Below, piece after piece: positions 11,839-47,274 of a stretch of DNA of 60,165 nucleotides. Source of the stretch: Thermoplasmata archaeon (GTDB lineage: Archaea; Thermoplasmatota; Thermoplasmata; Lutacidiplasmatales; UBA184); NCBI GenBank assembly GCA_021827405.1, contig JAKAVY010000006.1:1-60165 (forward strand). The letters are read 5' to 3'. Numbering within the stretch: the stretch's first letter is position 1; every line of letters starts with the position of its first letter. Both the position numbers and the translations under genes were made by a program. The notes beneath the pieces were generated by a model. That model worked only from the letters and a program-made list of their open reading frames with translations. It made no database searches and was not told the DNA's origin.

Positions 11839-12358
11839 CCTCCCCGAAGAGGCTCACGCGCCAGCGGGGGGGAAGGTGGGGGATGTTCACCAGGAGGGCC
11901 ACCACCAGGATCACGGCGAAGATGAGGATGGCCACGGCGAGGTGGAGGATCACCACGATCGGGTCCGCCTGGGTGAAGATGATCACCCCTCCGAGGGCCG
12001 CCTGGAGGACCACCAGGCCCAGGGACAGGGCTCCCAGGCGCCGGACGGCCCGCCCGTTCGGCTCGTAGGCCAGCACCAGGGCCAGGAGGGCGAGGATGAG
12101 CACGGAGAGGGTGAGGGCGGCCAGCCGGTGGGAGAACTCCGCGAGCACGGCGTTGGTCAGGGCATCCGGGAAGAGCCCGTTGCCGTTGCAGGTGGGCCAG
12201 CTTGGGCAAGCGAGGCTGGAGTTCGACGCCGTCACGTCGGCCCCGATGACGATGGTCACGTACGTCCAGACGGCGGTGACCACGCTGACCACGCGGACCC
12301 ACCGGTGCCCCCGGGGGTGCGGGGCCCGGGGCGGAGAGGGCCCCTCGGTCAGGCCCAT
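11810..12358 (-). CDS. ctaA: Heme A synthase (CtaA/COX15 family), half-size
   Basis: Frame from ATG 12358: [59 protein letters not shown]..., [47 protein letters not shown]; 182 aa, about 4 TM. Confidence 0.9.
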
Positions 12359-30689: not shown

Positions 30690-32840
30690 TTAAGGGTCTT
30701 CGGGGACCGGGGACCCCCCCGAGGCCGGTTCCGGGCGGTGGCGAGGGCGTGCCCCCTTCGGGATGGCCTCCGCCGGGTGGCGCCGGCCTTTGAAGATCCG
30801 CTCCACCTCGTCCCGGACCGAGACCAACGGTTTGAGGCCCGGGAGCGCGTCCGCGAACTGGACCGCCCGCCGGTCGAGGAGGATGCCCAGGCCCCGGTCG
30901 TCCTCGGAGCGGATCATCCGGCCGAGGGCCTGGAGCACGGCCCGCCGGGCGGGCGCCACCATGCCATACTCCCATCCCCGGCCGGTCAGGTGGTCCAGGT
31001 ATCGGATGAGCGCTTCCCGCCGGGCGGTGGGGCGGGGGAAGGGGATGCCCACGAGGATCACGCACTCGAGCTCTTCGTCCGGGAAGTCGATCCCTTCGGC
31101 CACGCGTCCCCCGCACACGCCGAGGAGGATCCCCGCCCCGGGGGAGCGTTTGAACCCCTCCACCAGGTTCCAGAGCTGTTCGGAAGGCATCCTACGGCTC
31201 TCCATGACCGCCCCCCGGGGGAGCTCGGAGGAGAGCCCCTGGGCCAGGAACCGGTCCAAGAGGGCGAAGCTGGGGAAGAAGGCGGCCGTCTTCACCGGCA
31301 GCTCCCTCAGGGTCCCCACGAGGGCCCGGTAGAGCCGGGGGAGCGCCTCGGGGTCCCCCTGGAGGTCCTCGTGGCGGCTGGTCACGTCGGGAACGTAGCG
31401 CAGGACCCGATGGGAGACCGGGAACGGGGAAGGCACGGTCAGCCGGGCGCTGTCCACGGGGAGCCCCAGAGTGTCCCGATATTCCTCCAGGGGCGCGAGG
31501 GTGCCGGAGAGATGGACGGAGAGGTGCGTCCCCAGGATAGGGCTCGCCGGCTCCCGGGCGTCCAGCGCGTAGGCCTCCACCGCCCGGTGGGGGCTCGCGA
31601 CGGCGGCCTTCACGTATTCCGGGGGGTCCACGCCGCCCCACGAAAGGAGGTTCTCGGCGACCGTGGCCGCGTAGGAACGGGGGAGCCGACGGGCCTGCCT
31701 CCGGCGGTCCCGGAGGCGTTCCCCCCACTCGGCAAGGGACAGGAGCATCTGGCGGAGGTCGTGGCTGGTCCCCCCCACCTCGGACAGGAGCCGGTCTTCC
31801 AGCCCGCCGGGGGGAAGGAGCCCGTCCTCCTCACCGGCGTACTCCTCCACGACCTCGGAAAGGACCTCCTCCACCTGGGTGAGGAAGGCCACGGCCGGCC
31901 GTTGGGGAAGCGGGCCCCCCGGGGCGGAGCCCACCGCCAGGAGGGGGAAGTCGCCGTGCTCCTCCACCTCCTCCCGGGCCCGGTGCACCGTCTCGAGTCC
32001 GAGCCTCAAGGTGATGCTCTCCCGGAGGTACTCGGGGAGGTTGTGGGCCTCGTCGATGACCAGGTCCACCTGGTCCAGGGAGACCCCCAACCAAGTGAGG
32101 AGCGAGGGCCGGATCCTCGGGTGGAAGAAGAACACGTAGGGGGCGACCACCACCGTCGCGTCCCGGCAGAGCCGTTTGGCGAGCTCGTAGGGGCAGAGGT
32201 TCTCCGCCGAGGCCAGGGCCTTGAACCGGTTGGAATCCGGCGCCTCCTGGGCGATCCGCTCGGCCATCCGGGGGAGGTCGGCGGCGATGAGCTGGGCGTA
32301 GTACGGGCACCCTTCCAGGTCGGTCAGTTCGAGGGTGGACTTCTTCCGGCCCCGGGCCGGCGGGCCCGCCGGGGTCGGTCCGGTCCGGTCCGGGGCGGCG
32401 GGCCGCTCGGTGGCCCGCTTGCGGTCCGCGCAGAGCTTCCCGATCTCCTCCGCGCTGGCCCCCTCCATCTCCGGCAACGCCTCGAAGAGGAGACAGCGTG
32501 CCTGTCGCCCCTCCAAGGCCAAGGCGAGCACCGGGTGCCCGGTCCGACGGGCGATGGCCCGGGTCTCGGCCAGGACCTGGGCGCTCTGGGAGTGGGTCCG
32601 GACCAGGTAGAGGACCTTGTGCCCGCTCTCCCGGGCATGGGGGATGAGCGGGGCGAGCACGGCCACCGTCTTGCCGCTGCCCGTGGGGGCATCCAGAAGG
32701 AGCGCCCCTCCGCGATGGGTCCGTTCCGTGACGGCCCGGAGGATCCCTTCCTGGGAGGGGCGGACCCGGTACGGGAAGGCCCCTCCGGCCGGCCGGGCCT
32801 TCTTTTCGGGGGGCCGGGGGAAGGAGGCGGGAGGGGGCAT
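30690..32840 (-). CDS. XPD/Rad3-family DNA helicase with Fe-S cluster cysteines
   Basis: LLDAPTGSGKTVAVLAPL, DEAHNL, Cys set in ARCLLF/KLCADR/GCPYY/LCPYELAK, QALGRMIRSEDDRG. Confidence 0.93.
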   Translation of the reverse strand: MPPPASFPRPPEKKARPAGGAFPYRVRPSQEGILRAVTERTHRGGALLLDAPTGSGKTVAVLAPLIPHARESGHKVLYLVRTHSQSAQVLAETRAIARRTGHPVLALALEGRQARCLLFEALPEMEGASAEEIGKLCADRKRATERPAAPDRTGPTPAGPPARGRKKSTLELTDLEGCPYYAQLIAADLPRMAERIAQEAPDSNRFKALASAENLCPYELAKRLCRDATVVVAPYVFFFHPRIRPSLLTWLGVSLDQVDLVIDEAHNLPEYLRESITLRLGLETVHRAREEVEEHGDFPLLAVGSAPGGPLPQRPAVAFLTQVEEVLSEVVEEYAGEEDGLLPPGGLEDRLLSEVGGTSHDLRQMLLSLAEWGERLRDRRRQARRLPRSYAATVAENLLSWGGVDPPEYVKAAVASPHRAVEAYALDAREPASPILGTHLSVHLSGTLAPLEEYRDTLGLPVDSARLTVPSPFPVSHRVLRYVPDVTSRHEDLQGDPEALPRLYRALVGTLRELPVKTAAFFPSFALLDRFLAQGLSSELPRGAVMESRRMPSEQLWNLVEGFKRSPGAGILLGVCGGRVAEGIDFPDEELECVILVGIPFPRPTARREALIRYLDHLTGRGWEYGMVAPARRAVLQALGRMIRSEDDRGLGILLDRRAVQFADALPGLKPLVSVRDEVERIFKGRRHPAEAIPKGARPRHRPEPASGGSPVPEDP

Positions 32841-33035
32841 CAGACCTCGCCGTGGGGGGCCCCGCCGGACGATAAAGCCCCCCGCCGGCCGCGGGGCGGG
32901 CCCCCGCGGGCCGGGCCATGAACGGAGAGGGACCGTCCGAAGTCCCGGAACCCTCCCCGCGCAGGGGAGAGCCCCCCGAAGCGCGCGGGGGGGGTCTGGC
33001 CGGTCCCGGGGACCCGCGTCCGTGGCGGGCCGGGC

Positions 33036-34286
33036 TCAGCGGAGCGCGCCCTTCCACGCCCCCGGGACCCGGGAAGGGTAGGTCACCCGGTCCGCTCCCA
33101 CGGCCGAGGCCAGGCGGGCCACGGCGGCCCGGATCCTCTCCCCGGTGTGCCGGTCTTGAGGGGCACCGGGTTCGGCGTGGACCGCCTGGATGTGGAGGAC
33201 ACCGGATTCCCGGTCGAGGCGCGGATCGATCCGGCCCAGGAACCGGTCTCCCCAGAGGATGGGGAGCACGTAGGTCCCGAACCGGCGCTTCTCTGGAGGG
33301 AGGAACTGCTCCCGGACGTAGTCGAAGTCGAAGAGGCGCCGGGTCCGGGGGATCTCGTAGAGCATGTTGTCGAACGGGGGTAACAGGGAGAGTCGGGGTT
33401 CCCAGCTCCCATCGCCCAGGGTCTGGAGGAGAGGCCGGTCCTCCGCGTGGAGGTAGCGCTCTTCCCGGCGCCGGGAGCCTTCGACGTTCACGGGGACGAT
33501 GGTCCCCTCCTTCCGGAGAGACTCGAGCGCCCGCGGAAGGTCCTGGTAGCGGCCTCGTGGGAAGTAGCGGTGGATCTCCCGGGGCGTGGCGATGCCGAGG
33601 GCCCGGAGGGCGCGTTGGGCCGCTTCCCGTTCGAGCTCCTCTTCCGGCAGCTCCTTCCTCTGGACCGAACCCGGCAGGAACGTATCCGTCAGTCCCCAGA
33701 CGTTCTGGCCCCCCTGGTGCGCGACCACCATCACCTTACCCTGCATGTGCAGGTGGTAGAGCATCTGGGCGACATCGCTGCTCGGGCTCCAGTCCCCGTC
33801 GCGGCGCTTCGTGGTGGGATGGTCCCGGAATCCGCTGAGCGGGAGGGGGCCGTTCCGGAGCTCGGCGAGCATCCTCCTCCTAAGGTCGGAGCGCTCGCTC
33901 AGGAAACGCTGGTACCGGGCCCGCTGCGCCCCCCACGACCGGGTCAGCGAATACGGGTATCTTCGCATCAGGGAGTAGTACAGGGGGTAATCCTCGGTGA
34001 GGACGAGGGAGGCGATGGGGGTCCAGTGGAGCATGAGGCTCTTCTCCTTCCAGAGCATCCGTTCGAGCCCCGCGGGATCGAACCTCTCCAGGCGGGCCCA
34101 CAGGGAAAGGAGGTGCGAGGGGGCCACGATGGGGACGGGGTCCCATTGTACGTAGGCCAGGTCCCGGATCACGGAGAGCGCGTCCGCGCGGGTCCCCCTC
34201 AAGAGGGGCGCACCCCCAAGGTGCTGCTTCGTCACGACCAGCCGCCGGGCGGTCTCCGCGCTGATGGACAGCGGGGTCTCGCTCAT
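33036..34286 (-). CDS. Winged-helix protein of the YcaQ/AlkZ-like (HTH_42) DNA glycosylase family
   Basis: ARRLVVTKQHLGG, VIRDLAYVQWDPVPIVAPSHLLSLWARL, LHWTPIASLVLTEDYPLY, FDNMLYEIPRTRRLFDFDYVREQFLPPEKRRFGTYVLPILWGDRFLGRIDPRLDR. Confidence 0.85.
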   Translation of the reverse strand: MSETPLSISAETARRLVVTKQHLGGAPLLRGTRADALSVIRDLAYVQWDPVPIVAPSHLLSLWARLERFDPAGLERMLWKEKSLMLHWTPIASLVLTEDYPLYYSLMRRYPYSLTRSWGAQRARYQRFLSERSDLRRRMLAELRNGPLPLSGFRDHPTTKRRDGDWSPSSDVAQMLYHLHMQGKVMVVAHQGGQNVWGLTDTFLPGSVQRKELPEEELEREAAQRALRALGIATPREIHRYFPRGRYQDLPRALESLRKEGTIVPVNVEGSRRREERYLHAEDRPLLQTLGDGSWEPRLSLLPPFDNMLYEIPRTRRLFDFDYVREQFLPPEKRRFGTYVLPILWGDRFLGRIDPRLDRESGVLHIQAVHAEPGAPQDRHTGERIRAAVARLASAVGADRVTYPSRVPGAWKGALR

Positions 34287-34562
34287 GGACGGCGCCGCCG
34301 GGGCCCGCCGGCGGAGGGCTTCCCCCATTGGAGCGGCCCTCTCGAGGCGTTCGAGACGAGCCGGCCAGCCCGAACGGCGGGCACGTCCGGGAAGCGGGAG
34401 GGCCTCCGGCTCCGGGAATCCCGAAGGCAGATCACCGGGACCCCCGCCCCGCAGATGGGGGTACGGTCCTCGGCCGCCATCCTCAGGGTCCGCGTGAGCA
34501 TGCCCGGGAGAGGTCTCGCCTCCCGATAAACGGCGCGGACGGGCCGCTGGGGAGCCGGTCCC

Positions 34563-35153
34563 TCAGCTCCCCGGGGGCTTGCGGTAGGGATGGAATTCGT
34601 CGGCGAGCAACCCGAAGCGCTCCCCCCTCCGGTACTCCCCATCGATGAGCCATTGGTCCCGGTCGAACCCCTCGGACCGGAAGCCGAGCCGGGTCAGGAC
34701 CGCCCGGGACCGTGCGTTGCCCTCGACGATCCCCGTTTCCAGGCGGTGGAGCCGCAGGGTCCCGAAGGCCTCCTCGCAGAGGCGGGAGGCGGCCTCACTG
34801 GCGTAACCGTGCCCCCAGTGCTCTCGTTCGACCCAGTATCCCAGGTGCCCGCGACGGTCGCGCAAGGACCGCACCTCGAGCCCCGCCCCGCCCACCAGCT
34901 CCCCGGTGTCGGAGAGGGTGCAGTGAAGGGGATAGCGTTCCCCCGAGGCGATACCCTTTCGCGCCCGGGCGATGAACTGGCGGGCATCGGCGAGGGTGTA
35001 CCGGGGCCAGAGAGGAAGGGTCCGGGTGATCTCCCGGTTGGAGAAGGCCTTCGCGAGGACACGGGCGTCGGAGGGGCGCGGGGCTCTCAGGAGCAACCGG
35101 GCCGTCCGAAGCGGCAACCGGATCCGGCGCAGACGGACGGGCTCGGGAGGCAT
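34563..35153 (-). CDS. GNAT acetyltransferase (RimJ/RimL type)
   Basis: LRTARLLLRAPRPSDA, GYWVEREHWGHGYASEAASRLCEEAFGTLRLHRLETGIVEGNARSRAVLTRLGFRSEG. Confidence 0.92.
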   Translation of the reverse strand: MPPEPVRLRRIRLPLRTARLLLRAPRPSDARVLAKAFSNREITRTLPLWPRYTLADARQFIARARKGIASGERYPLHCTLSDTGELVGGAGLEVRSLRDRRGHLGYWVEREHWGHGYASEAASRLCEEAFGTLRLHRLETGIVEGNARSRAVLTRLGFRSEGFDRDQWLIDGEYRRGERFGLLADEFHPYRKPPGS

Positions 35154-35289
35154 AGGCGGGAAGTCTCCAGACGGGAGATTATGCTTTTGCCGGTCCCCAG
35201 GGGGCCCGGTCTGCGCCCACAGGACCGGTCCCCCCCCAACCGAGGGTCCAGCCTCTTCCTTCCGGGGTCGATGGGGTCCTCGGTGGGGA

Positions 35290-36567
35290 TCACCTCTTGT
35301 GCGCCTCGCTCCAGCGCGTCCGGATCTCCCGGATCCGGTCCTGGTTCAGACCGAGAAGGGGATTCAGCGAGGGAAAGAGTACCGGAAGGGTCCCGACGGC
35401 CCAGACCAGCGCTAGGCCTACCAAGAGAGCCCCCAGAGCCTCGGCGGCCCCGCGGAAGGCAGGACCGCCCGCTCCTCCCGACAAGGCAAAGCCCGCGACC
35501 CCGCTGATCAGCACCGCCGAGAGGGTCCACAACATCCGTTTGGTCCACTGGTGGGAGACGCGCTGGAAAGGCGCGATCATTCCGAACCACATCAGTAGGA
35601 TGGTCAGGCCAAAGAACCCCAGAAGACCAAGCATCGCGTGGACCGGGATCTGGGTGAACCGGCCGGTGGAGAGCATCCAGAGCGCGACTGTTCCCCCGCC
35701 GATGAAGAAGGCTGCCGCCGTAACGTGGAGGACCGCTTGGGGTCGGGGGGTCTTCGCCCGTCCCGCGAGGTCGACAAGGATGACCAGGAAGGTCACCGCA
35801 AAGATCATCTCGGGAATGGCAAGAAGGGAAAGTAGACCTTCGGGGTCAGAGGAGGGGATGAGCATCCCGGCGGGGACGAGGATGGCCCCCAGGGGCCCGG
35901 TGACGGTCATCAGGCCGGTCGCGAAGGGAGGCGGATCGGCCGCGAGGGAGCGCGGGACCATCCGAAGCGAGACCGCTCCGATCAGCAAGACGACGTGCCC
36001 TAGTACGAACAGATGGACCCCCGCGATCCACCACCCGAACCCGGGGCCGGTCTGAAAGGCAGAGACCGTGAACAACAACCCCGCCCCCGCGGCAGCCACC
36101 CAGGAGGACAGGAAGAGCGGAATGGTGGAAAAGTCGGCGGGCCTTGCCGGAGGACCAGCCCCGGCAACGGGAGGGGTGCGGAAGGCGCCAGCGAACCGGA
36201 GAGAGATCACCAGGAAAGTGACGGTCAGCAGTCCAGCGGCTAACGCGAAGCCGGTGGCGGCAAAGGTCGCGGGGAGAAGCCCCGATAGCGCGATGAATCC
36301 TAGGAGGGTGCCGGTCTCGGCCACGCCCGCCATTACCGGGTCCCCGGTCCGGGGATGAAGCGGCCGCCTGGCCACGGCCGGGAAGAGATGGAGGGCGAAT
36401 CCGAGGGTCGAAAAGGCGAGGAATCCCATCAGAAGGAGCCAGAGGAAGGCGTCCCATCGAGCTCCCAGTACCCCGGTGTAGGCGATGAACGCCAGCAATC
36501 CCCCGGCGAGCGCCAGGTGTGCCAGCGCGCCGGTCAGGAAAATGCGTGAGGACGTGTGCAAGGGCAT
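35290..36567 (-). CDS. Polytopic multi-His membrane protein, NnrS/heme-copper-oxidase-like (candidate heme protein)
   Basis: About 12 hydrophobic segments with intramembrane His (FALHLFPAVARR, GVHLFVLGHVVLLIGAVSLRMVPR, VLHVTAA, VHAMLGLLGFFGL). Confidence 0.7.
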   Translation of the reverse strand: MPLHTSSRIFLTGALAHLALAGGLLAFIAYTGVLGARWDAFLWLLLMGFLAFSTLGFALHLFPAVARRPLHPRTGDPVMAGVAETGTLLGFIALSGLLPATFAATGFALAAGLLTVTFLVISLRFAGAFRTPPVAGAGPPARPADFSTIPLFLSSWVAAAGAGLLFTVSAFQTGPGFGWWIAGVHLFVLGHVVLLIGAVSLRMVPRSLAADPPPFATGLMTVTGPLGAILVPAGMLIPSSDPEGLLSLLAIPEMIFAVTFLVILVDLAGRAKTPRPQAVLHVTAAAFFIGGGTVALWMLSTGRFTQIPVHAMLGLLGFFGLTILLMWFGMIAPFQRVSHQWTKRMLWTLSAVLISGVAGFALSGGAGGPAFRGAAEALGALLVGLALVWAVGTLPVLFPSLNPLLGLNQDRIREIRTRWSEAHKR

Positions 36568-36769
36568 AGGATAGGCCCGTCCACTCTAGTTCAGGCCCCT
36601 ACCAGGAGGCGTGGGGCCTTTTGAGCTCCGGGGGTCATGGACCGGGGAGGATCGGAACCCAGGACCAGCCGCCCCCGGTCTTGGCCGGGTCTGCTTGGGG
36701 ACCGTAGGGTTGGGTCGGGAGCGGGGCAGCGCCCGGGTCCGCCTGCCGTTAAGGGGTCCCGAGGGTGTG

Positions 36770-36958
36770 TCAGGCCGCTTTCGCTTCGACAGCGTTCGCT
36801 CCCCTTTCCAGCCAAGCCCGGTACCACGCGACCCGGGCATTCAGTTCTTGGGCAAGGCGAGAAGGGTCCTCGTCCTCTGCCTCGTGCCGGCGGGCCATTC
36901 CCGGACCGTCCGTCTCCCGGGTCTTGTCCGTCTCGCGGAGCGCTCGGAAAGCCTCCAT
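36770..36958 (-). CDS. Small hypothetical protein
   Basis: MEAFRALRETDKTRETDGPGMARRHEAEDEDPSRLAQELNARVAWYRAWLERGANAVEAKAA. Confidence 0.45.
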   Translation of the reverse strand: MEAFRALRETDKTRETDGPGMARRHEAEDEDPSRLAQELNARVAWYRAWLERGANAVEAKAA

Positions 36959-37075
36959 CGGTACTCCTTTCCCCCTCTCGTTCGGGGCATCTCCATGAAC
37001 GCCCCGGTCGGGATAGGGGTCCCGTCGAAACCTTTCGGAGGGAGGCCGCACTGAGGAAGTCCCGGGGACCCGAGG

Positions 37076-37798
37076 CTAGGCCCGTCCTTCGAGGATCTTC
37101 TTCTCGATGACCGCAAGGGTCACGGAGAGGGTGGAGATGGCCACCCCTATCCGTTGGGCCAGGTCTGTCAGGGAAATGCGCCGGGGGACGTCAAAGTACC
37201 CCTCGACCATCGCGCGGTGGAGGATCTCCTGCTGTCGCGGCGTGAGCAGGGGGGACCCTCTGGGTACGGGACCGTGATGGACCGCCTCCACTCGGACCCC
37301 GCTCGCCTGACGTTGCAGCTTCTTCAGCAGCTCGCGGACCCTTCCCTCCGGTCCGACCACGGTCCATGTCGCCACGCCCTCCTGGACCGGAAAGGGGAAG
37401 TGCCGAAGCAGTTTCAGCTCCTTCAGAAGCGGGAGGAACGTCCTTCCTCGGAAGGTGACCCGAAAGATCTGTGCCCCCCCGGCGGCATCGATAAGCTCCA
37501 GGTCGTGGACGCCGGGCAGCCCACGGATCTCCTCGCTCCAACCCCGCCCCTGAGAGGGGGGGAGCTGGACCTCGAGCATGGTGAGGCCATTCCCAAGTTC
37601 CATGCGGTCCATGACCTCTGCATGGACGTCGGGATGGGCCGCGGTGAGCGCCTGGAGCCAGAGACCTGTCGGAAGGGTAACCCGGACCCGGCAGGCAAGG
37701 ATCGCCTGCTCCCGGCCCTCGGCGGCAGCTTCCTTCAAGCTTCGCGGGAGGGAGGCCTTCATCGCTCTTCCTCGGTCCCTTCGACGGGTCCCCGGCAT
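37076..37798 (-). CDS. Bat/HTH-10 family helix-turn-helix regulator
   Basis: C-terminal LLTPRQQEILHRAMVEGYFDVPRRISLTDLAQRIGVAISTLSVTLAVIEKKIL, characteristic archaeal HTH_10. Confidence 0.92.
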   Translation of the reverse strand: MPGTRRRDRGRAMKASLPRSLKEAAAEGREQAILACRVRVTLPTGLWLQALTAAHPDVHAEVMDRMELGNGLTMLEVQLPPSQGRGWSEEIRGLPGVHDLELIDAAGGAQIFRVTFRGRTFLPLLKELKLLRHFPFPVQEGVATWTVVGPEGRVRELLKKLQRQASGVRVEAVHHGPVPRGSPLLTPRQQEILHRAMVEGYFDVPRRISLTDLAQRIGVAISTLSVTLAVIEKKILEGRA

Positions 37799-37985
37799 GA
37801 TCTCTCGGAACGTGCACCCGGGGCGGACCCAGCGGGCCCACAGTCGAGGTCGACAGGCCTAATGTAACCACCGGGGCTTCCCCACGAAAGCTCTAGCCCC
37901 CTCCTCCAAGGTCTAAGAGGCATTCTTGGGGAGGGAGCCAGAGATCATGACCGCCGGAAGTGAGACCCTTCGAGGGGGGGCAACG

Positions 37986-38336
37986 ATGATCAGAACGAAG
38001 CGAGCCTATGAACGCCCTTCCCCCGAGGATGGGAAGCGGGTCTTGGTCGACCGGCTCTGGCCCCGGGGCCTTACCAAGGACCGGGCCAAGATAGACGAAT
38101 GGCGGAGGGACCTAGCTCCGAGCGAGGACCTCCGCCGTTGGTTCGGGCACGACCCGGCAAAGTTCCCGGAGTTCCGGTCCCGGTACCGGGTGGAACTATT
38201 GCGGCAACGCAACGTGTTGGCAGACCTCGTGTGCGCCGCGGAGCGAGGGGTGGTCACGTTGGTGTACGCCGCCAGGGACACCGAGCACTGCAATGCGACG
38301 GTCCTGAAGGAGCTGCTCGACGAGAGCCTCAACTGA
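37986..38336 (+). CDS. DUF488 family protein
   Basis: IRTKRAYERPSPEDGKRVLVDRLWPRGLTKDRAKIDEWRRDLAPSEDLRRWFGHDPAKFPEF, VTLVYAARDTEHCNA. Confidence 0.92.
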   Translation: MIRTKRAYERPSPEDGKRVLVDRLWPRGLTKDRAKIDEWRRDLAPSEDLRRWFGHDPAKFPEFRSRYRVELLRQRNVLADLVCAAERGVVTLVYAARDTEHCNATVLKELLDESLN

Positions 38337-38348
38337 AGGAGAGCGGAC

Positions 38349-38801
38349 ATGGAGGAAGGGCCGGCGCCGGGGGCCGGGGCGGAACCGGTCGCCCCCCTTG
38401 GCGAGCGGATGGAGAGGGATCATGACCGCCTGAACGACCTTTGGGACGAGGCGCGCCGCCTCTGGCCGGAGGACCGGGGGAGATCGACCCCGCTCTTCGA
38501 AGCCTTTCGGACCGGGCTGCTGCACCACATCCGAGAGGAGGAAGAGTTCATGTTCCCATTGTACGAGAGCCGGAACGCGGCCTCGGCGAAGTACTTGACC
38601 GACTTTCTCCGGGAGGAGCACGACCAGATCCGTTCCGAGCTGGAGTCGCTGCTGAGGAAGGTCCTGGCGGGCGTAGCGGACTTGGAGCCGGAGAACACGC
38701 GGTTGACGAACGTGCTGTGGGCCCACAACACCCGGGAAGAGGGGCTCCTCTACCCCTGGTTTGACGAAGACCGGACGGAAGGGGAACGGCTCGCCCCCTA
38801 G
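38349..38801 (+). CDS. Hemerythrin/HHE-domain protein
   Basis: ERDHDRLND, LLHHIREEEEFMFPLYE, LREEHDQIRSEL, HNTREEGLLYPWFD. Confidence 0.9.
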   Translation: MEEGPAPGAGAEPVAPLGERMERDHDRLNDLWDEARRLWPEDRGRSTPLFEAFRTGLLHHIREEEEFMFPLYESRNAASAKYLTDFLREEHDQIRSELESLLRKVLAGVADLEPENTRLTNVLWAHNTREEGLLYPWFDEDRTEGERLAP

Positions 38802-38811
38802 GGGGAAGGCA

Positions 38812-40017
38812 ATGCCCGGGGAGTCCCCAAGCCCCCTGCCGACAACCGGGCCCCTGGTGATCCTAGGGGCCGGTTACGCTGGGGTCACCCTGGCCCAGGG
38901 CGTTTGGCACAGGACCAAGGGGAGCCTACCGGTCATCCTGGTAGACCAGAGCCCGTTGCACGTGCTTCGCACGGAGCTCTACGAGATCGGGAAGATGGCC
39001 CTGGTCCAGGAGGATTCCCCCTGGGCCCTCCCTCTGGAAACGATCTTTGACCGGACCAACGTGCGCCATCAACTGGGCCGGGTCCAGGCCATCGACCTGG
39101 TCCACCGCAAGGTCAAGCTCGACTCCGCCGATGTCCCATTCGGTACGCTCGCGATCTGCCTGGGGAGCCAGCCCGCTTCTTACGGAGTGCCGGGGGCCTT
39201 GGTGCACGCGCACCAGGTATACGGGCTGGAGGGGGCCCGGCGTCTCGCGAGGGCGATCCGGGAGGTGGAGACGGCTTCGGTCCAACTCCAGGGAGAGCGG
39301 CGCCCCCGCTTCGTGGTCATCGGAGGAGGGGCCACCGGTGCTGAGTTGGCCGCGGACCTGGCCATGACGGACTGGCCCAGCGTTACCCTCCGATCCGCAC
39401 GCGCTCCTGAGATCCTGTTGGTCCCGGGGGCGCTGCCGTTCCTGCTTGGCCTTCCCCCTTCCGTGCAGCGTCGTGTCCGCGAAATGCTTCAATGCGCGGG
39501 AGTCGGCTTCCTCTCAGGGATCAATGCCACCGGTGTCGAGCCGAGGTGCGTCCTCTTGGAGGACGGGACCCGACTCGTGGCGGACCTCGTGGTCTGGGCC
39601 GCCGGTGTGGAGGCGCCCGAACTCGTGCGTGCCCTGCCCGTGCCCCATGGGAGGGGAGGGCGGATCTCGGTCAGCAGCACCCTCGAGGTCCCGGGTCACC
39701 GGGGGATATTCGCCGTCGGCGACGTGGCCGAGGTCCTCGACCCGGTCACGGGCTTGCCGGTCCCTCAGACCGCGCAGGCCGCCATCGCCGAGGCCCGCAC
39801 CGCGGCCTACAACGTGGTCGCCCTTCAAAAAGGAACGAGGCCCCGCCGTTTCCGGTATCAAGAGATGGCCTCGATCCTCGCGTTGGGGTCCGGACGTGGA
39901 GCGGCGTCGGTGAAAGGGCTCCCGCTCTGGGGACGGCCGGCCTCTTGGCTCAAGAAGCTGGTCCAAACGGAATACGCGCGATCCATCCGACGTGGAGAAC
40001 CGTCCCCGTACCTGTGA
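38812..40017 (+). CDS. Type II NADH dehydrogenase-like FAD oxidoreductase
   Basis: LVILGAGYAGVTLAQGV, FVVIGGGATGAELAADLAM, GIFAVGDVAEV, PQTAQAAIAEARTAAYNV. Confidence 0.9.
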   Translation: MPGESPSPLPTTGPLVILGAGYAGVTLAQGVWHRTKGSLPVILVDQSPLHVLRTELYEIGKMALVQEDSPWALPLETIFDRTNVRHQLGRVQAIDLVHRKVKLDSADVPFGTLAICLGSQPASYGVPGALVHAHQVYGLEGARRLARAIREVETASVQLQGERRPRFVVIGGGATGAELAADLAMTDWPSVTLRSARAPEILLVPGALPFLLGLPPSVQRRVREMLQCAGVGFLSGINATGVEPRCVLLEDGTRLVADLVVWAAGVEAPELVRALPVPHGRGGRISVSSTLEVPGHRGIFAVGDVAEVLDPVTGLPVPQTAQAAIAEARTAAYNVVALQKGTRPRRFRYQEMASILALGSGRGAASVKGLPLWGRPASWLKKLVQTEYARSIRRGEPSPYL

Positions 40018-40158
40018 GCGCTCTCTTCGCGGGACCTTCGGTCCGAGCTGCGCGGCCGAGCCTGGAAGGGGTGAGGGGGCCCTTGCGGCAGAACAGTCTG
40101 AGCAGGAGCGGGCCTACCAACGGGGTTGCCTGGACGCGCCAACCGAAGGAGGCCTTCG

Positions 40159-40398
40159 GTGCCGATAGGAGCGGTCACGGAGGGTCTCCCGAGGTCCCGG
40201 GTTGCCTTGCGGGTCTCGTTCTTCGGCTCAGAGGGATGGCACCTCCTCGCAGCCGTGGAGGGGAAGAGCCCCGATCGGATGGCTTGGGTTCCGGTGGACC
40301 GCCCGCGCCCCCCCACCCGGTCGGCTCGAGGGGGGGTCGACCTTCCGGTCCCCGGGACCCGCGGCGGGCGGGGGGACCCCTACGGCCGCTTCGGTTAG
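40159..40398 (+). CDS. Small hypothetical protein
   Basis: GTG start with AAGGAGG 6 nt upstream; VPIGAVTEGLPRSRVALRVSFFGSEGWHLLAAVEGKSPDRMAWVPVDRPRPPTRSARGG... Confidence 0.35.
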   Translation: MPIGAVTEGLPRSRVALRVSFFGSEGWHLLAAVEGKSPDRMAWVPVDRPRPPTRSARGGVDLPVPGTRGGRGDPYGRFG

Positions 40399-40516
40399 GT
40401 TCGGTACGGCTCCTTGACCTCTCCTGTGGTTGCGCAGCCGGGGCCTGAAGCGACCCGCGGGTCGAACCTTCTCCCGGCCACGTCGGAGGGTACGCGGGGG
40501 AGCGCCGGACGCCGCT

Positions 40517-41308
40517 TCACTCCTCCGATTCGCCCCAGCGATCGACAAAGATCCGGTCCCTCCGGCCTTTCAGCTGGAGGGAAAGCGCCTGCATCTGGCT
40601 GACCATCGGGTTGGACCCGCAGATGTACACGTCCGCCATGGAGAGGTCCGGGAACCGGCCGCTCACCGCTTCCTCCACATGGCCGACCGCCCCCTTCCAG
40701 GATCCGTCTGCCGGCGGCCGGGAGATCACCGGGACAAAGTGGAACGTGGGCCAGGCGGCCGAGAGCGCACGGAGCTCCGTGTGGTAGACCATCTCCGCAG
40801 CGTATCGGTTCCCGAGGAACAACCACACGGGCGTTTCCGGGCGGTCACGGCGCAACAGCTCGAGCATGGGAACAAAGGGCGCGAGGCCGACCCCCGTCGC
40901 CACGAGCACCACGATCCGACCACCAGGGTCCTGAAGGACGAACCTCCCCAACGGGGCCAGTGCCATCAGAGACGGTCTTGCCGCGGGCGAGAGCCCGCAG
41001 AGGTAGGTCGACGCGAAGCCGTGCGGGACCTCCTTAACGAGAAGCGACACCCTCTCATGACGTTCCGCGGAGGAGAAGATGGAATAGGAGCGGGTGACCG
41101 ACCGACCCTCCCGTTGCAGGTAGAATGTCACGTATTGGCCTGGAAGGAAGTAGAGCGGGTCGGTCGGTGGCAGATCGAACGTCAGCACATGGATCGCCGG
41201 CGCAACCTCCTCATTCGATACCAGGGCGAGCGACCGACGATGGGGGGGCTGACCCGAAGGCAGCGGGCCTAGGGCAGGCTGGGGAAGAGGTAGAGCATCA
41301 GCCGTCAT
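40517..41308 (-). CDS. FAD/NAD-binding oxidoreductase (ferredoxin-NADP reductase family)
   Basis: LPGQYVTFYL, SVTRSYSIFSS, VVLVATGVGLAPFVPMLELL, DVYICGSNPMVSQM. Confidence 0.93.
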   Translation of the reverse strand: MTADALPLPQPALGPLPSGQPPHRRSLALVSNEEVAPAIHVLTFDLPPTDPLYFLPGQYVTFYLQREGRSVTRSYSIFSSAERHERVSLLVKEVPHGFASTYLCGLSPAARPSLMALAPLGRFVLQDPGGRIVVLVATGVGLAPFVPMLELLRRDRPETPVWLFLGNRYAAEMVYHTELRALSAAWPTFHFVPVISRPPADGSWKGAVGHVEEAVSGRFPDLSMADVYICGSNPMVSQMQALSLQLKGRRDRIFVDRWGESEE

Positions 41309-41676
41309 CGGGATCTACCTCGCGCCCGTCGGTCATGCCCCCACACGGGAGGCGGCCCTTTCCCGAGGGCGGGGAGTGAACGTTCGTCCGCCAGAGTCTC
41401 ATGGCCCTTCCCTCCCTGGAGAGGCCACGGACTGCCCAAAGCCGATCACCGAAACGTTTCGCAGCGAGGGCATCCCCCCCGTCTGTCCTACGCCCAGGGG
41501 AGCGACGGGAGGCCGCGGCCCCCCGGGCGGGACGATGGGTCCTCTGGCCCCTTCGCGTCCGTCTTCTAGCGAAGCTCTGGTGACCCCGCGTCTCCGTCCT
41601 CTGTCCCGGCCGGGACCCGGGAAAGGTCACCAGAGCGGGTGAGGTAGATCCCCTGACCTGAGCGCGGAGGCACCCA

Positions 41677-42252
41677 CTAGGTCCGGTAGGTGCCGTCGAG
41701 GAACCGTCCAATCCTCACTTCGAGCGCCTTCCGCGTCCCCGCATGGTCTTCGAACCGGCTCTGGAGAAGCCTCTGGGCCCCCTCCGGGATCGCGGACCGG
41801 AGACAGGCGAGCGCATACGCCTCCTCGTATTGGACCGCCTCATAGTCCCGGGTCGCGAGCTCGAGGATCCCCCTTCCCACCCGAGCCTGGGCGGCCGCAT
41901 CGCCGGTGGCCCACAGACGGATGTCGCGCAGAAGCTGCTGGGCCCGGTGGCACATCTCGCTGTGATTGGTGCTCATGTGGCCCAGGTGTATGGCACAATC
42001 CCCCCGTGTCATGGGCTCCACATCGGGCCTCAGGTCCCGGTCCTCTTCCCCCACGTGGACCCGGTGCAGATAGGCGTCCAACAGCGAAACCCCGATCAGA
42101 GCGCTCCGCGGGTCCACGGGTTGTCCCGAACGGAGGCGATCGCCCATCTCCATCAACCGCTTCAACAGCGGCTGTACGAACGCGTGTTCCTGGCTGAGCT
42201 CCGCCAGAGGGCCGCGGGGCTCTGGGATCGCGGTTTCGCCTTGAGCGCTCAT
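41677..42252 (-). CDS. Hemerythrin-like/HHE-domain protein
   Basis: LSQEHAFVQPLL, LHRVHVGEEDRDLRP, HMSTNHSEM, YEEAYALACL. Confidence 0.75.
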   Translation of the reverse strand: MSAQGETAIPEPRGPLAELSQEHAFVQPLLKRLMEMGDRLRSGQPVDPRSALIGVSLLDAYLHRVHVGEEDRDLRPDVEPMTRGDCAIHLGHMSTNHSEMCHRAQQLLRDIRLWATGDAAAQARVGRGILELATRDYEAVQYEEAYALACLRSAIPEGAQRLLQSRFEDHAGTRKALEVRIGRFLDGTYRT

Positions 42253-43115
42253 GCGGGCAGTCCCCTCGAGACCCTGCGATCTAGAGAGACCAGGGAGACC
42301 CTTCTGCCTTCTTCAGCCCCATCCACCCGACCCGCTGGCTCGGCGGTCGCCCTTGGGGGCTGGCCCGCCGGATCCGGACCGTGGGGGTCCCCCTCGGGCC
42401 GCCCGACTCCCGGCTCCCCCCGGGTGGCCTCCCGGAACTCCGTGCTCCGTCCCTGCGGTGGTGCGTACGGGAAGGAGGTGCCCGCCAGGCCCGGAAGTGT
42501 TTGGGGGGTCACCGTGGCCGCATAACCCCCCTTGGCGCTGGAGGTCTGCGGCTTCGGCCCTCGCTCCCCTGGAGAGGGGGCTAGCACCCGAGCGAGCCCC
42601 CCTTCGAGCTCCTCGATCGCAGGCTGGGTCTCCCGGAACCGTTCCGCGACCAGCTCGGCCGAGTCGTCCGGAAGGACGGTCAGCAGGCAGGAGAGTGGAT
42701 AATCCCCCTCATAGACCGTGGTCTCATGGTCCTTGGTCGCGAGCCCCTCCAGGAGCTCCGCAAGATGCGCCCGGGACCCAGGGGGGTCCCGTCCATAGAC
42801 TTCCAGCGCCTTGAGCGCCTCGCTGGTCCGCCGCTGTCCTTCCTTGTGGTCCTTCAGGACCTTGTCCAGGTGCGGGAAGCATCCCTCCATGGCAACTCGG
42901 CGAGCGTAGGGCATCAGGTCCTGGTCGAGCCTCCGGGCGTGTACGGCGAGGTACTGATCGAGCCAGCGGAGCATCCCGGAGACTTCGTCCGGGGGTACGT
43001 CCGCCCCCGCTTTCAGAAGTTCGGCCACCTCGAGGATGCGCGTCAAGACGTTCACCAGGACATCGTTCTCCCGCTGAAGTTCCTCCAGCGGGTCATGGAT
43101 CTCTTGTGCGGTCAT
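42249..43115 (-). CDS. Hemerythrin-like protein with long low-complexity C-terminal region
   Basis: AVHARRLDQDLMPYARR, LKDHKEGQRR, TVYEGDYPLSCLL parallel to the adjacent ORF; ATGA overlap with 41677-42252. Confidence 0.6.
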   Translation of the reverse strand: MTAQEIHDPLEELQRENDVLVNVLTRILEVAELLKAGADVPPDEVSGMLRWLDQYLAVHARRLDQDLMPYARRVAMEGCFPHLDKVLKDHKEGQRRTSEALKALEVYGRDPPGSRAHLAELLEGLATKDHETTVYEGDYPLSCLLTVLPDDSAELVAERFRETQPAIEELEGGLARVLAPSPGERGPKPQTSSAKGGYAATVTPQTLPGLAGTSFPYAPPQGRSTEFREATRGEPGVGRPEGDPHGPDPAGQPPRATAEPAGRVDGAEEGRRVSLVSLDRRVSRGLPA

Positions 43116-43582
43116 GGTCGTGATTCCCTATCCGGGGCCTCTGGTCCAGGATAGAGGACCCCGGGCATTAGCGACTCTGGCTAGAGGCTTCGCATGCGTC
43201 GTGTGGCCCGTTGGGGGAAGGGCGTGTTAGCGGCACATCTGGGGGGATAGGGGGGGCGGCGCCATAGGGGGCGCCAAGCCCGCACGACGCGGGTCGTCTG
43301 CCTCCCATCGTTCCCCCCCAGATGGCGCTGGGGGAAAGACCGGTTCCCGAGGCGATGGAGGACGATGTGGTCAAGTTGCCTCAGGAGCCCGTCCGGGCAG
43401 GTCTCGGAAGGGTGGAGCGGAGGGAGGTCCGGCTGCGAGGCTGGGTCCGGAAGGTCATCGGAACATCCCGGGGCCAACGAAGGGCGACCGGACGTGGCGG
43501 AAGCGTCGGACCTGTCAAGGAGGGTTCCATGAGACCGTCGCCGGTACCACCCTAGCAAGTACGAGGCGGCCGGGGCATCGAG

Positions 43583-43801
43583 CTATCCAGCCGACCGGGC
43601 ATGGGAGGACCCGCAGAGCTCGGGGAGGGAGAGGGCCCACGGAAACGGGCCTCGACAGAAACCTCCTGGGGCGGGGCCGTACCGGGCGCCCTCCTCCTGC
43701 GCCAGCTGCATTTGGCAACGCGGGCAGGGACCCGGGGCGGGCGCCCCGGGTTGCCCTTCCGGGGCGGGCAGTACAGTTGTCCCTACGAGGAGTTCGCGCA
43801 A
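43583..43801 (-). CDS. Small Cys-containing hypothetical ORF
   Basis: GPCPRCQMQLAQEEGARYGPAPGGFC; lies ~25 nt downstream of the DoxD-cupredoxin gene. Confidence 0.3.
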   Translation of the reverse strand: MRELLVGTTVLPAPEGQPGAPAPGPCPRCQMQLAQEEGARYGPAPGGFCRGPFPWALSLPELCGSSHARSAG

Positions 43802-43825
43802 CAGCCGCCTGGCCCGTGCAGGTCC

Positions 43826-45208
43826 TCAGAGAACGGTGATCGTGCCGGTCATGTAACCGGGAACCCCCATAGGGGGGCCCTCGGGCGTGAGGGTCCCGCA
43901 GGGGGCCTCGCACGTCCAAGAGAACGTGCCGGTCTCGTTGAAGTACGTGGTGAAGGTGACCACGCTCATCCCGGGGCTCAGGACGTTCAGACCGAGCGCG
44001 GGCACGTCGAAGGTGTGGGCGATGTTCGAGTCGTTCAACGTGTGCAACGGTGTGCCGTTGAGTTGCTCCAGGTTCCCCACGGTACCCGTGACGGCGCACA
44101 GGCAACCCGGGAAGTACATGGGAGCGTCGTCGTCCACGATGGTGAGGCTGACCCGGCCCGACGGAACAGAGAAGTTCGCGGGGGTGTACTGGGGCCAGCC
44201 GTTCTGGAGGTTTATGGCGATGGTGAGCGTCAAGTTCGTGGAGAGGGAGGGGGCGCCGATCAGGGGGCCCGGGGCCTGCGCGCTGACGACGGAATAGGCC
44301 CCCACGCCCGCCACGGCCAACCCCAGGGCCAGCCCCAGCGCAAGAAAGCTGAGCTTGGTGTGGGCGGAGGGGTAGAGCACGCTGTAGACCGGATCGGCTC
44401 CGGGCCCTCCGGGGCCTGCTCCGGCCAGAAAGGTCGCCCCATCTCGGCCGGCCGGTCTCTCCGTCCTCAGGACCCCCCTGGGCGACGCGATCCAACGGGA
44501 GAGACGAGGGAAGCGTGCGTGTCCCGAGGCCCAGACCCAATGATCGAAAGCGAAGTACTGTCCCGCCCCTCCCAGGAACAGGATGAGGTAAATGAGGATG
44601 TAGAGCGGGTGGGGCCCTACGTCGGTCCCCGTACCATCCAAGGCGAAGGTGGAGTAGAATTGGGTGACGATGAAGAGGGAGGAGGCGATGCCTCCCACGA
44701 TACAGGCCAGACGGGTAGTGGTCCCACTGAGGAAAGCGACCGCCAGGTATCCCGTGAGGAGCGCGACACCCCAGGCAAAGACGGCGGGGTACGAGGCGGC
44801 GAGGTTGGCCAGGCCCGGACCCCCGAGCGAGCTGTTGGCGAACCCGCTCGCCGTCTGCCGGAACCCAGAGAAGAACTGATTGGAGGGGGCGAGGATAAAG
44901 ATCAGGTTCAGCGCCCAGACGATGCCGATCCCCACGCGCAGCAAGTCCACCGCCACGCCCTTGGGGTTGCTCCGCCAAGTCGCGCTGGACCGAAGGGAAC
45001 GGGCCGCCCTTGCTACCGGGTCTGGGCTGACCCGCGGCTCCGAGACCCTTCTCGTTGAGGAGGAAGAGGCGTCGGCTGGTCGGGCTCGAGCCGAGTCACC
45101 GGCGTGGGTCGATCCCCCCCGCCCAGGGGTCCCTCCCTCCCCCCCGTCTGTAGGGGGGCCTCCCTGGCGAGCGAGAGGCGGTGCTTCCGGGCCGCGTGTT
45201 GGCTCCAT
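43826..45208 (-). CDS. DoxX/DoxD-like membrane domain fused to an extracytoplasmic cupredoxin-like domain
   Basis: DLLRVGIGIVWALNLIFILAPSNQFFSGF ... LYILIYLILFLGGAGQYFAFDHWV (DoxX-like); C-terminal AHTFDVPALGLNVLSPGMSVVTFTTYFNETGTFSWTCEAPCG...GVPGYM. Confidence 0.75.
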   Translation of the reverse strand: MEPTRGPEAPPLARQGGPPTDGGEGGTPGRGGSTHAGDSARARPADASSSSTRRVSEPRVSPDPVARAARSLRSSATWRSNPKGVAVDLLRVGIGIVWALNLIFILAPSNQFFSGFRQTASGFANSSLGGPGLANLAASYPAVFAWGVALLTGYLAVAFLSGTTTRLACIVGGIASSLFIVTQFYSTFALDGTGTDVGPHPLYILIYLILFLGGAGQYFAFDHWVWASGHARFPRLSRWIASPRGVLRTERPAGRDGATFLAGAGPGGPGADPVYSVLYPSAHTKLSFLALGLALGLAVAGVGAYSVVSAQAPGPLIGAPSLSTNLTLTIAINLQNGWPQYTPANFSVPSGRVSLTIVDDDAPMYFPGCLCAVTGTVGNLEQLNGTPLHTLNDSNIAHTFDVPALGLNVLSPGMSVVTFTTYFNETGTFSWTCEAPCGTLTPEGPPMGVPGYMTGTITVL

Positions 45209-45882
45209 GGTCCTCCCCCCCCCAGGGGACGCGACCCTCTTACCAACTGGACCTAAACGGTTCGACCGGCCCTCTCCCCGAGGGTAGGTCATGTGTGGTC
45301 CTCCCATGAGATCGCTCGAGGAGAGACCTGGCGCCGCTAGGCAAGGGAGGAGACGCCCGGCCGCAGCCAGAAGCGTGCAAGACATTTCTTCGACGGAGGA
45401 AGGGGTGGGGTAGGAAAGCCCCTTTGGGGATCTCCCGGGCTTCCCCCGCTCAGATCCCTCGGTCGACGGTTGTCGGGAGGCGGAACGGCTCGGTATTCTC
45501 CGGGCTCAGGACCCGGATCCGGCGTTCGGGCGGGAGGGTTCCCGGGAATCTCCACCCCACTCGAGGGAACCCGGTCCTTCGCCGGATGCGGCGGACCTGG
45601 GCCGCGGCCAGAAACCCCCCGGACGACCAGGGCGGAGCCCGGGCACCCCTGGTCAGGAAGGAGGGTTGGCGGGGCCCCGGGCCTCGCCGGTTGGGGGATC
45701 GAGGGTAAGACGACCTCGGTGTCGGGGGCATCGCGCGACGCAGGTCCCTCCGGCTTGGGGAGCCGGCGCTAAGGGAGCCCCAAGCTCCTTCCCCCATCGA
45801 CCCCGGAGATTGCCGGGTAGCCGTAGAGGCCAAGGGCGCCCCGTCGCTCGGGTCTCTCGGAAGGCCTCGAGGGAGGCTTCCC

Positions 45883-47274
45883 TCAGGGCGCCTTCTTCAC
45901 GGCCTGGACCAGCTCGGCCACCACGTGCTGGGCGTCGCCGTAGAGCATCCGGCAGTTGTCCTTGTAGAACAGGTCGTTCTCGATCCCGGCGAAGCCCTTC
46001 CCCTGGCCCCGCTTGATGACGATGACGTTCTTCGCCTGGTCCACGTCCAGGATCGGCATCCCCTGCAGCGCGCTCCCCGTCCGCCGGGCCGCCGGGTTCA
46101 CCACGTCGTTGGCCCCGATGACCAGGGCCACGTCGGTGTGCGCGAACTCGGGGTTGATCTCGTCCCGGTCGAACAGCTTGTCGTAGGAGACGCCCGCCTC
46201 GGCCAGGAGCACGTTCATGTGCCCGGGCATCCGCCCGGCGACCGGGTGGATCGCGAACTTCACCGTGACCCCCCGGGCCTCGAGGGCGTCGGCCAGCTCC
46301 TTGACCTTCTGCTGCGCCTGGGCCACGGCCATCCCGTACCCGGGGGCGATCACCACCTGTCCGGAGTACTCCATCAGGACGGCGGCATCGGCCACGTCGA
46401 TGGGCTTGAGGGACCCCGCGACCGGGCCCCCGGTGTCCGCCCCGCTCCCGAAGGCCCCGAAGAGCACGTTCCCCAGGGAACGGTTCATGGCCCGGGCCAT
46501 GAGGAGGGTGAGGAGCGACCCGGCCGCCCCCACCAGGGTCCCGGCGATGACCATAGCGTAGCCCGCGTCCCCCAGGGGCCCGTTGACCAGGGCAAACCCG
46601 TCGAGCGCGACCGCGACCCCCGTGAGCGCGTTGAACAGGCTGATCACCACCGGCATGTCGGCTCCCCCGATCGGCAGCGTGAGGAGGATCCCGTAGAGCA
46701 AGAGGAGCCCGAAGAAGGGGAGGAGATAGAACGACTGCGTCACCAGCACGGCCACGCCGCCGAAGCCCACCCCCACGACGAGGACCGCGAAGTTCACCAC
46801 CTGGCGGGCGGGCAGGACGATGGGCTTGCCGGGCAGCCAGCCCTGAAGCTTGGAGAAGGCGATGAAGCTCCCCGCGATGGAGATGCTGCCGATGATGCCT
46901 CCCGCCAGGCTGAGCCCGGTGGTGGCGCCGGCCGAGAGGCTGGTGAGCAGTTCCACGGCCGCGATGGCCGCGGCGGCTCCCCCCCCCATCCCGTTGAAGA
47001 TGGCGACCATCTGGGGCATGTCGGTCATCTTGACCACCCGCGCCCAGTACCAGCCGGCCCCTCCGCCGATGAACACCCCGAGGGCGATGAGGGCGAAGTT
47101 CCCGAGGCCTCCCGTGGCGAAGGTGACCAGGACCGCCACCAGCATGGCCACCCCCGCGTAGAGGATCCCCCGGCGGGCGGTCTCCGGGGAGCTCATCGCC
47201 TTGAGCCCCAAGATGAAGGCGATCACCGCAACCACGTAGACCGCGTCGATGACGGTGCCGACCCAGGCGATCAT
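45883..47274 (-). CDS. pntB: NAD(P) transhydrogenase subunit beta
   Basis: GGGAGWYWARVVKMTDMPQMVAIFNGMGGGAAA, VVIAPGYGMAVAQAQ, FAIHPVAGRMPGHMNVLLAEAGVSYDKLFDRDEIN, IGANDVVNPAA. Confidence 0.97.
   Translation of the reverse strand: MIAWVGTVIDAVYVVAVIAFILGLKAMSSPETARRGILYAGVAMLVAVLVTFATGGLGNFALIALGVFIGGGAGWYWARVVKMTDMPQMVAIFNGMGGGAAAAIAAVELLTSLSAGATTGLSLAGGIIGSISIAGSFIAFSKLQGWLPGKPIVLPARQVVNFAVLVVGVGFGGVAVLVTQSFYLLPFFGLLLLYGILLTLPIGGADMPVVISLFNALTGVAVALDGFALVNGPLGDAGYAMVIAGTLVGAAGSLLTLLMARAMNRSLGNVLFGAFGSGADTGGPVAGSLKPIDVADAAVLMEYSGQVVIAPGYGMAVAQAQQKVKELADALEARGVTVKFAIHPVAGRMPGHMNVLLAEAGVSYDKLFDRDEINPEFAHTDVALVIGANDVVNPAARRTGSALQGMPILDVDQAKNVIVIKRGQGKGFAGIENDLFYKDNCRMLYGDAQHVVAELVQAVKKAP

Follow-up and report, generated by a model that had tools for sequence, protein, structure and literature searches.

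A gene island inserted at a conserved site

The window analyzed here is the whole of contig JAKAVY010000006.1 (C61; 60,165 nt) from a Thermoplasmata archaeon, whose genome assembly of 1.82 Mb in 71 contigs is about 91% complete. It harbors an island that codes for an HTH_10 regulator, a DUF488 protein, hemerythrin-like proteins (HHE1 to HHE3), FAD/NAD oxidoreductases, and a 12-helix membrane protein (the 12-TM family), and that carries candidate operators of the regulator (Table 1). Genes and their starts were predicted with a simple codon-model caller, and protein families were assigned by profile searches against Pfam and NCBIfam. The relatives used for comparison are metagenome-assembled genomes, those with names being Thermoplasmata; judging from isolate names, we take many of them to come from sample series of acid-mine drainage. 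Comparisons covered 37 genomes of the family, 61 genomes for the nirK scan, and 390 genomes across the phylum for the 12-TM family.

An earlier, sequence-only reading had placed an accessory island of deviating base composition at 35160-45880. Its composition was indeed found to differ: the GC content at third codon positions (GC3) averages 0.807 for the eight called genes at 35290-45385, compared with 0.917 (sd 0.035) for 40 flank genes (Mann-Whitney p = 5e-7), which refutes uniform codon usage. Gaps between genes reach 370-710 bp inside the stretch versus often <100 bp in the flanks. The left edge had to be moved, however. In a blastn comparison with a contig of the same genus (G001:C42), the alignment at 87% identity runs up to window position 32884 and starts again from 45890, with only ~325 bp between these points in G001. 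Thus, the insert measures 13.0 kb, and since its left end lies at ~32885 rather than 35160, the AlkZ-like and GNAT genes belong to it as well. The genes on either side, for an XPD-like helicase (30690-32840) and a transhydrogenase (pntB, at 45883), are also neighbors in G002, G003, and G004, such that the adjacency is kept in four genomes including G001. No tRNA was found in the window, no integrase or transposase among the called genes, and no clear terminal repeats at the ends of the insert.

An unoccupied site in a genome of the same genus, together with a patchy distribution, bears out the idea of a flexible island. G001 has a module copy of its own elsewhere, on G001:C9. Module GC3 falls below that of core genes in G001, G003, and G004 (0.79 versus 0.92, 0.84 versus 0.92, and 0.90 versus 0.94, respectively), a dip that is clear against core genes and weak against local neighbors. 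In the gene trees, the 12-TM gene of the window falls in a clade of genera g5/g6/g3, separate from its own genus-mate (support 100/99), and the HHE1, HTH_10, and HHE2 genes group with other lineages. These data indicated that the stretch is a horizontally acquired island assembled as a mosaic.

Table 1. Genes and sites of the island (window coordinates)
Feature	Position	Strand	Basis or remark
Whole insertion (genomic island)	32885..45889		blastn edges versus G001:C42
AlkZ-like DNA glycosylase, passenger	33036..34328	-	PF06224, 178 bits; GC3 0.89
GNAT acetyltransferase, passenger	34563..35153	-	PF13302, 105 bits
12-helix membrane protein, predicted heme-copper-oxidase fold	35290..36567	-	AlphaFold2 model, Foldseek, alignment; conserved His 17/60/185/310/339
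62-aa open reading frame (ORF), candidate small gene	36770..36958	-	starts 67 nt downstream of operator
Candidate operator CGAAAGGTTTCG	37026..37037	-	same motif in relatives' promoters
HTH_10 regulator, kin to haloarchaeal denitrification regulators	37076..37798	-	PF04967, 57 bits; tblastn
DUF488-N3 protein, divergent to regulator	37926..38336	+	PF22752, 141 bits; divergent pair recurs in relatives
Hemerythrin HHE1, full conserved ligand set	38349..38801	+	PF01814, 67 bits
NDH-2-like FAD/NAD oxidoreductase (Pyr_redox_2)	38761..40017	+	PF07992, 110 bits; in cluster of G020 and G024 too
FAD/NAD reductase (FNR-like)	40517..41308	-	FAD_binding_6 and NAD_binding_1 profiles
34-codon leader ORF	41298..41402	-	stop overlaps reductase start
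Candidate operator CGAAACGTTTCG	41450..41461	-	47 nt upstream of leader ATG
HHE3, hemerythrin-like, invariant Cys	41677..42252	-	PF01814, 19 bits, below cut-off; alignment
HHE2, hemerythrin-like, invariant Cys	42249..43115	-	PF01814, 30 bits; alignment
Membrane and cupredoxin-like protein	43826..44956	-	codon bias; probable true start near 44956; ORF extends to 45385

The island genes recur as a cluster in relatives

A core cluster consisting of the genes for HTH_10, DUF488, HHE1, the 12-helix protein, HHE2/HHE3, and the FAD/NAD reductase recurs in more than 12 relatives, where DUF2249, an Fe-S assembly protein, and a second membrane protein (c6) are frequent partners. Among the 37 family genomes, the 12-TM gene is present in 18 and HHE2/HHE3 (E < 1e-15) in 17, with both in 14; HHE2 thus accompanies 14/18 genomes with the 12-TM gene versus 3/19 without it (Fisher p = 2e-4). 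At the loci around 12-TM and HHE2 genes we counted HHE1 22 times, HTH_10 19, HHE2/3 18, DUF488 11, and the FNR-like reductase 9, and in addition the multi-helix protein c6 (11), DUF2249 (9), a small membrane protein (c9; 9), and an FeS_assembly_P protein (c10; 8). The families stand side by side in many genomes with differing order and strand; HTH_10 and DUF488 are typically divergent neighbors, the regulator thereby lying with its candidate targets, and a hemerythrin follows just downstream of the 12-helix gene in several relatives. The co-occurrence expected of a module was therefore found. Across the phylum's 390 genomes, the 12-TM family is essentially limited to the one family studied here, with a few weak matches elsewhere. 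The window version is a hybrid, in which the HTH_10-DUF488-HHE1-12TM-FNR-HHE2 set is joined to an NDH2-HHE2-HHE3 set known from G020 and G024. Two genomes assigned to different genera carry almost identical module copies (L107 on G024:C345 and L108 on G019:C14), the result of either recent transfer or bin contamination.

A palindromic operator is shared by the module promoters

A blind search for palindromes enriched in module promoters over the other promoters of the same loci yielded CGAA-N4-TTCG at the top, extending to CCGAA-N4-TTCGG. The core motif occurs in 33/117 module promoters versus 8/253 others (5 distinct sites); the 33 promoters represent only 26 distinct sites, since divergent genes have a site in common. 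The enrichment (Fisher p = 9e-11) was computed with 31/117 module promoters, and the counts are not fully independent, as some loci come from near-identical genomes. The motif is located ahead of 9/9 DUF2249 genes and also ahead of 12-TM, HHE1, HHE2, FNR, and c10 genes, in most cases at 44-75 nt from the start codon and often immediately 5' of an A/T-rich, TATA-like stretch. Searching whole genomes with the center set to NSSN, we found six sites in G032, all but one within 6.5 kb of the module, and five in G035, three of which are on the 13-kb contig with the module; the control with the reversed pattern gave 0. Since the NSSN restriction was derived from module sites, this count is not an independent test, but the control is. 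Co-regulation had been expected from the sequence-only reading, and its support lies in these shared operators. In the window, well-placed sites precede the 62-aa ORF ahead of the 12-TM gene and the leader of the FNR-like reductase. The 62-aa ORF itself had no counterpart in the relatives' loci searched.

The same motif is known from haloarchaea. According to PMC5746218, which cites Hattori 2016 on NarO, the denitrification promoters of Haloferax volcanii have CGAA-X4-TTCG in common, and transcription of nirK requires it. In H. mediterranei, nirK, nor, and nos have CGAAYATDKTYG 66-79 nt ahead of them; mutating it reduces the activity of the promoters, with a significant effect for nor and nos (PMC10062603).

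The regulator is related to haloarchaeal denitrification regulators

By tblastn, the similarity of the window regulator to haloarchaeal regulators spans most of the protein. The best haloarchaeal match found (E = 4e-16) is a Halorussus protein from a nirK/nor cluster, which has genes for halocyanin, heme synthesis, a cbb3-type/NOR-like oxidase, and nirK as neighbors; another homologue adjoins nirK and DUF2249 in Halomarina. At these haloarchaeal loci, the regulator, DUF2249, or oxidase/NOR-like genes have CGAA-N4-TTCG 50-80 nt ahead of them. An alignment with 20 relatives revealed no conserved cysteine in the window regulator family, and the cysteine motif for oxygen sensing, which we take to be a feature of NarO and DmsR, is thus missing. 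The signal may therefore reach this regulator in another way.

The haloarchaeal denitrification response includes DUF2249 and bacterioopsin-activator genes (PMC11218638). With the NarO-type HTH_10 regulon of H. volcanii the module has in common a regulator with full-length similarity and CGAA-N4-TTCG 44-80 nt before gene starts, and DUF2249 and cupredoxin genes lie nearby in relatives. In contrast to the haloarchaeal regulon, nar, nor, and nos were not seen at the module loci and nirK was found in one genome only, whereas hemerythrins, DUF488, and the 12-helix protein are present and the regulator is devoid of conserved cysteines.

The 12-helix protein has a predicted heme-copper oxidase fold

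The AlphaFold2 model of the 12-helix protein is of high confidence (pLDDT 91.6), and its best Foldseek matches are all to subunit I of heme-copper oxidases, including cbb3 (E = 5e-5) and cNOR (E = 2e-4), with TM-scores of 0.6-0.7 (TMq 0.67). One relative matches the COX1 profile (E = 6e-4). In the alignment, conserved histidines are confined to helices 1, 2, 6, 10, and 11, and the six-histidine ligand set of heme-copper oxidases (helices 2, 6, 7, and 10) was not recovered; with no helix-7 His pair and without the second helix-10 His of true oxidases, the canonical copper/heme site is incomplete. Profile-profile comparison did not support homology to c6 and the oxidases (hhalign probabilities 0.2-10%), leaving a likeness by fold alone, and sequence searches for solved structures returned none. 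The model of c6, of lower confidence, weakly matches the same fold.

The protein had been described as NnrS-like. What stands of this is a fold-level resemblance: it shares 12 helices, conserved histidines, and an NO-type neighborhood with NnrS (PF05940), but membership was rejected, there being no Pfam or NCBIfam match for the protein and a best E value of 0.017 among 18 relatives. It represents a family with a predicted heme-copper fold that lacks a profile model in either database. Heme-copper-like families were reportedly described by Pei et al. in 2014, and this one may already be mentioned there.

Two types of hemerythrin-like proteins

Pfam bore out the earlier HTH_10, DUF488, hemerythrin, NDH-2-like, and FNR-like assignments. 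For the at least two hemerythrins then proposed, one full and one weaker profile match were obtained, with a third protein below threshold. HHE1 carries a complete diiron ligand set, in which H25, H60, E64, H91, H126, and E130/E131 are invariant in 22 relatives. The HHE2/HHE3 family (e.g., 41677-43115) has lost most of the canonical histidine ligands and features two invariant cysteines instead: Glu22, Tyr61, His66, Cys86, Glu143, and Cys150 are invariant, a residue set suggestive of an altered metal or thiol site. HHE2 of the relatives ends in a cysteine-rich domain. In the window, the last ~100 codons of HHE2 (42249-42545) exhibit no coding bias, and no trace of this domain was detected in any frame; it seems to have been lost or to have decayed.

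Neighbors of the relatives point to a probable response to NO

Homologues of c6 in bacteria share 36-40% identity with it. On Cupriavidus necator pHG1, the genes alongside are norR, ytfE, and those for a nitric oxide reductase, an Fe-S assembly factor, Rrf2, DUF2249, and hemerythrin; in Jiella, the neighbors are NnrS, DUF2249, truncated hemoglobin, and hmp, and in Paraburkholderia, they are NnrS, hemerythrin, DUF2249, and Rrf2. Such genes form the core of bacterial NO regulons (PMC1274295). The c6 family itself is an unnamed membrane protein of these NO-response clusters (L264, L266, L267), annotated only as hypothetical. Hemerythrin, a membrane heme-copper-type protein, DUF2249, an Fe-S assembly factor, and a flavin reductase are common to the module and the NsrR/NorR/DNR nitrosative-stress regulons of bacteria (nnrS, dnrN/ytfE, hmp, hcp; PMC1274295). 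The archaeal module differs in having HTH_10 and its operator in place of Rrf2 or sigma54 activators, and its cluster is without hmp, hcp, and norVW.

Given the kinship of the regulator to those of nirK/nor clusters and the position of c6 relatives beside NO-response genes, we reasoned that the stretch is probably a horizontally acquired NO stress island under the control of an HTH_10 switch. Of the two signals, O2 and NO, named in the sequence-only reading, these neighbors favor NO, and O2 is less supported. Nitrite is converted to NO by chemical reaction in acidic waters rich in iron; NO stress is therefore to be expected there even in organisms that do not denitrify. As neither nirK nor an NO reductase was seen in the genome, a detoxifying role is more likely than a respiratory one.

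Several findings weigh against this interpretation. DUF2249 and c6, the parts most closely tied to NO elsewhere, are missing from the window's genome (~91% complete), as is c9, and no remnants of the missing partner genes were found in the window; the neighborhood of c6 is thus an indirect pointer for the window. That genome has no enzyme of a kind proven to consume NO, the NnrS profile has no match there, and nirK appears only as a weak cupredoxin match (28.5 bits versus a cut-off of 296). A second heme-copper oxidase (C30) was considered as the NO reductase and rejected, since it keeps the HxxxY of O2 reductases. The window contains CGAA-N4-TTCG three times, all inside the island, versus 0.58 expected, and three or more were obtained in 4/100 shuffles. 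Only two of these are plausible operators, the third, at 38498, being taken as a chance match inside the HHE1 gene. Strict CCGAA-N4-TTCGG sites across the window's own genome (5 versus 2 in the control) are not clearly above control, so a wider regulon is not claimed.

The main rival is a low-oxygen module, in which the regulator would sense O2 and the hemerythrins would store it or deliver it to terminal oxidases. NarO has been described as the oxygen sensor of denitrification in H. volcanii (PMC11218638), haloarchaeal promoters with the motif respond to anoxia (PMC10062603), hemerythrins bind O2, and a heme-copper oxidase is encoded in every genome of the family except one. We regard it as unlikely, since the partner genes' bacterial neighbors are NO-response genes, the regulator offers no conserved cysteines to hold an Fe-S oxygen sensor, and the cluster is without an oxidase gene. 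Far less probable is that the genes serve denitrification in nitrite- or NO-respiring organisms, as accessories for electron transfer or sensing: the regulator and operator are common to nirK/nor clusters, but a near-full-length nirK candidate exists in only one of the 61 genomes (G015), which lacks the 12-TM gene, and the window's genome yielded no NO reductase. A chance gathering of redox genes in an accessory region, for which the unrelated passengers and the variable gene set speak, is similarly hard to credit in view of the recurrent clustering and the common operator.

From neighborhood and kinship we infer the pairing of regulator and operator, NO as the signal, and all biochemical activities of the NO stress island. 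The HTH_10 regulator would activate promoters bearing CCGAA-N4-TTCGG, in the window those of the 12-helix gene (through the small upstream ORF) and of the FNR-like reductase. HHE1 may bind or reduce NO or repair NO-damaged iron centers, with the reductases feeding electrons. The cysteine-containing HHE2/HHE3 could act as sensors or thiol/iron buffers, and the 12-helix protein may be an accessory membrane protein in an NnrS-like part. A bolder proposal, to which we give little credence, is that the 12-helix protein, the adjacent hemerythrin, and the reductases form a new membrane system of acidophilic archaea for removing or sensing NO, and that the NarO-like regulator and its operator are an ancient NO switch common to Halobacteria and Thermoplasmata.

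The open PMC literature that we searched yielded no description of an NO response in Thermoplasmata. The present finding offers a candidate regulon with regulator, operator, and targets, and it suggests that the switch known from haloarchaeal denitrification predates denitrification in these lineages or is the more mobile of the two.

Further observations

The C30 oxidase (G000:C30, L179:7622-10396) is ~920 residues long, has a fused cupredoxin/subunit-II-like C terminus, and is found in some relatives only; it is distinct from the COX1 protein of the window (12349-14604; 751 residues), whose long N-terminal extension before the oxidase domain is conserved in the family.

The last protein of the island had been read as a DoxD-cupredoxin fusion, a claim that was not confirmed: no Pfam match was obtained, and the first ~143 codons of the ORF (43826-45385) exhibit no coding bias. 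Relatives match residues 112-306 and 313-519 as separate pieces. Its cupredoxin-like domain contains a CxxxC motif and has many copies across the genomes of the family, sometimes with the operator in front (L085).

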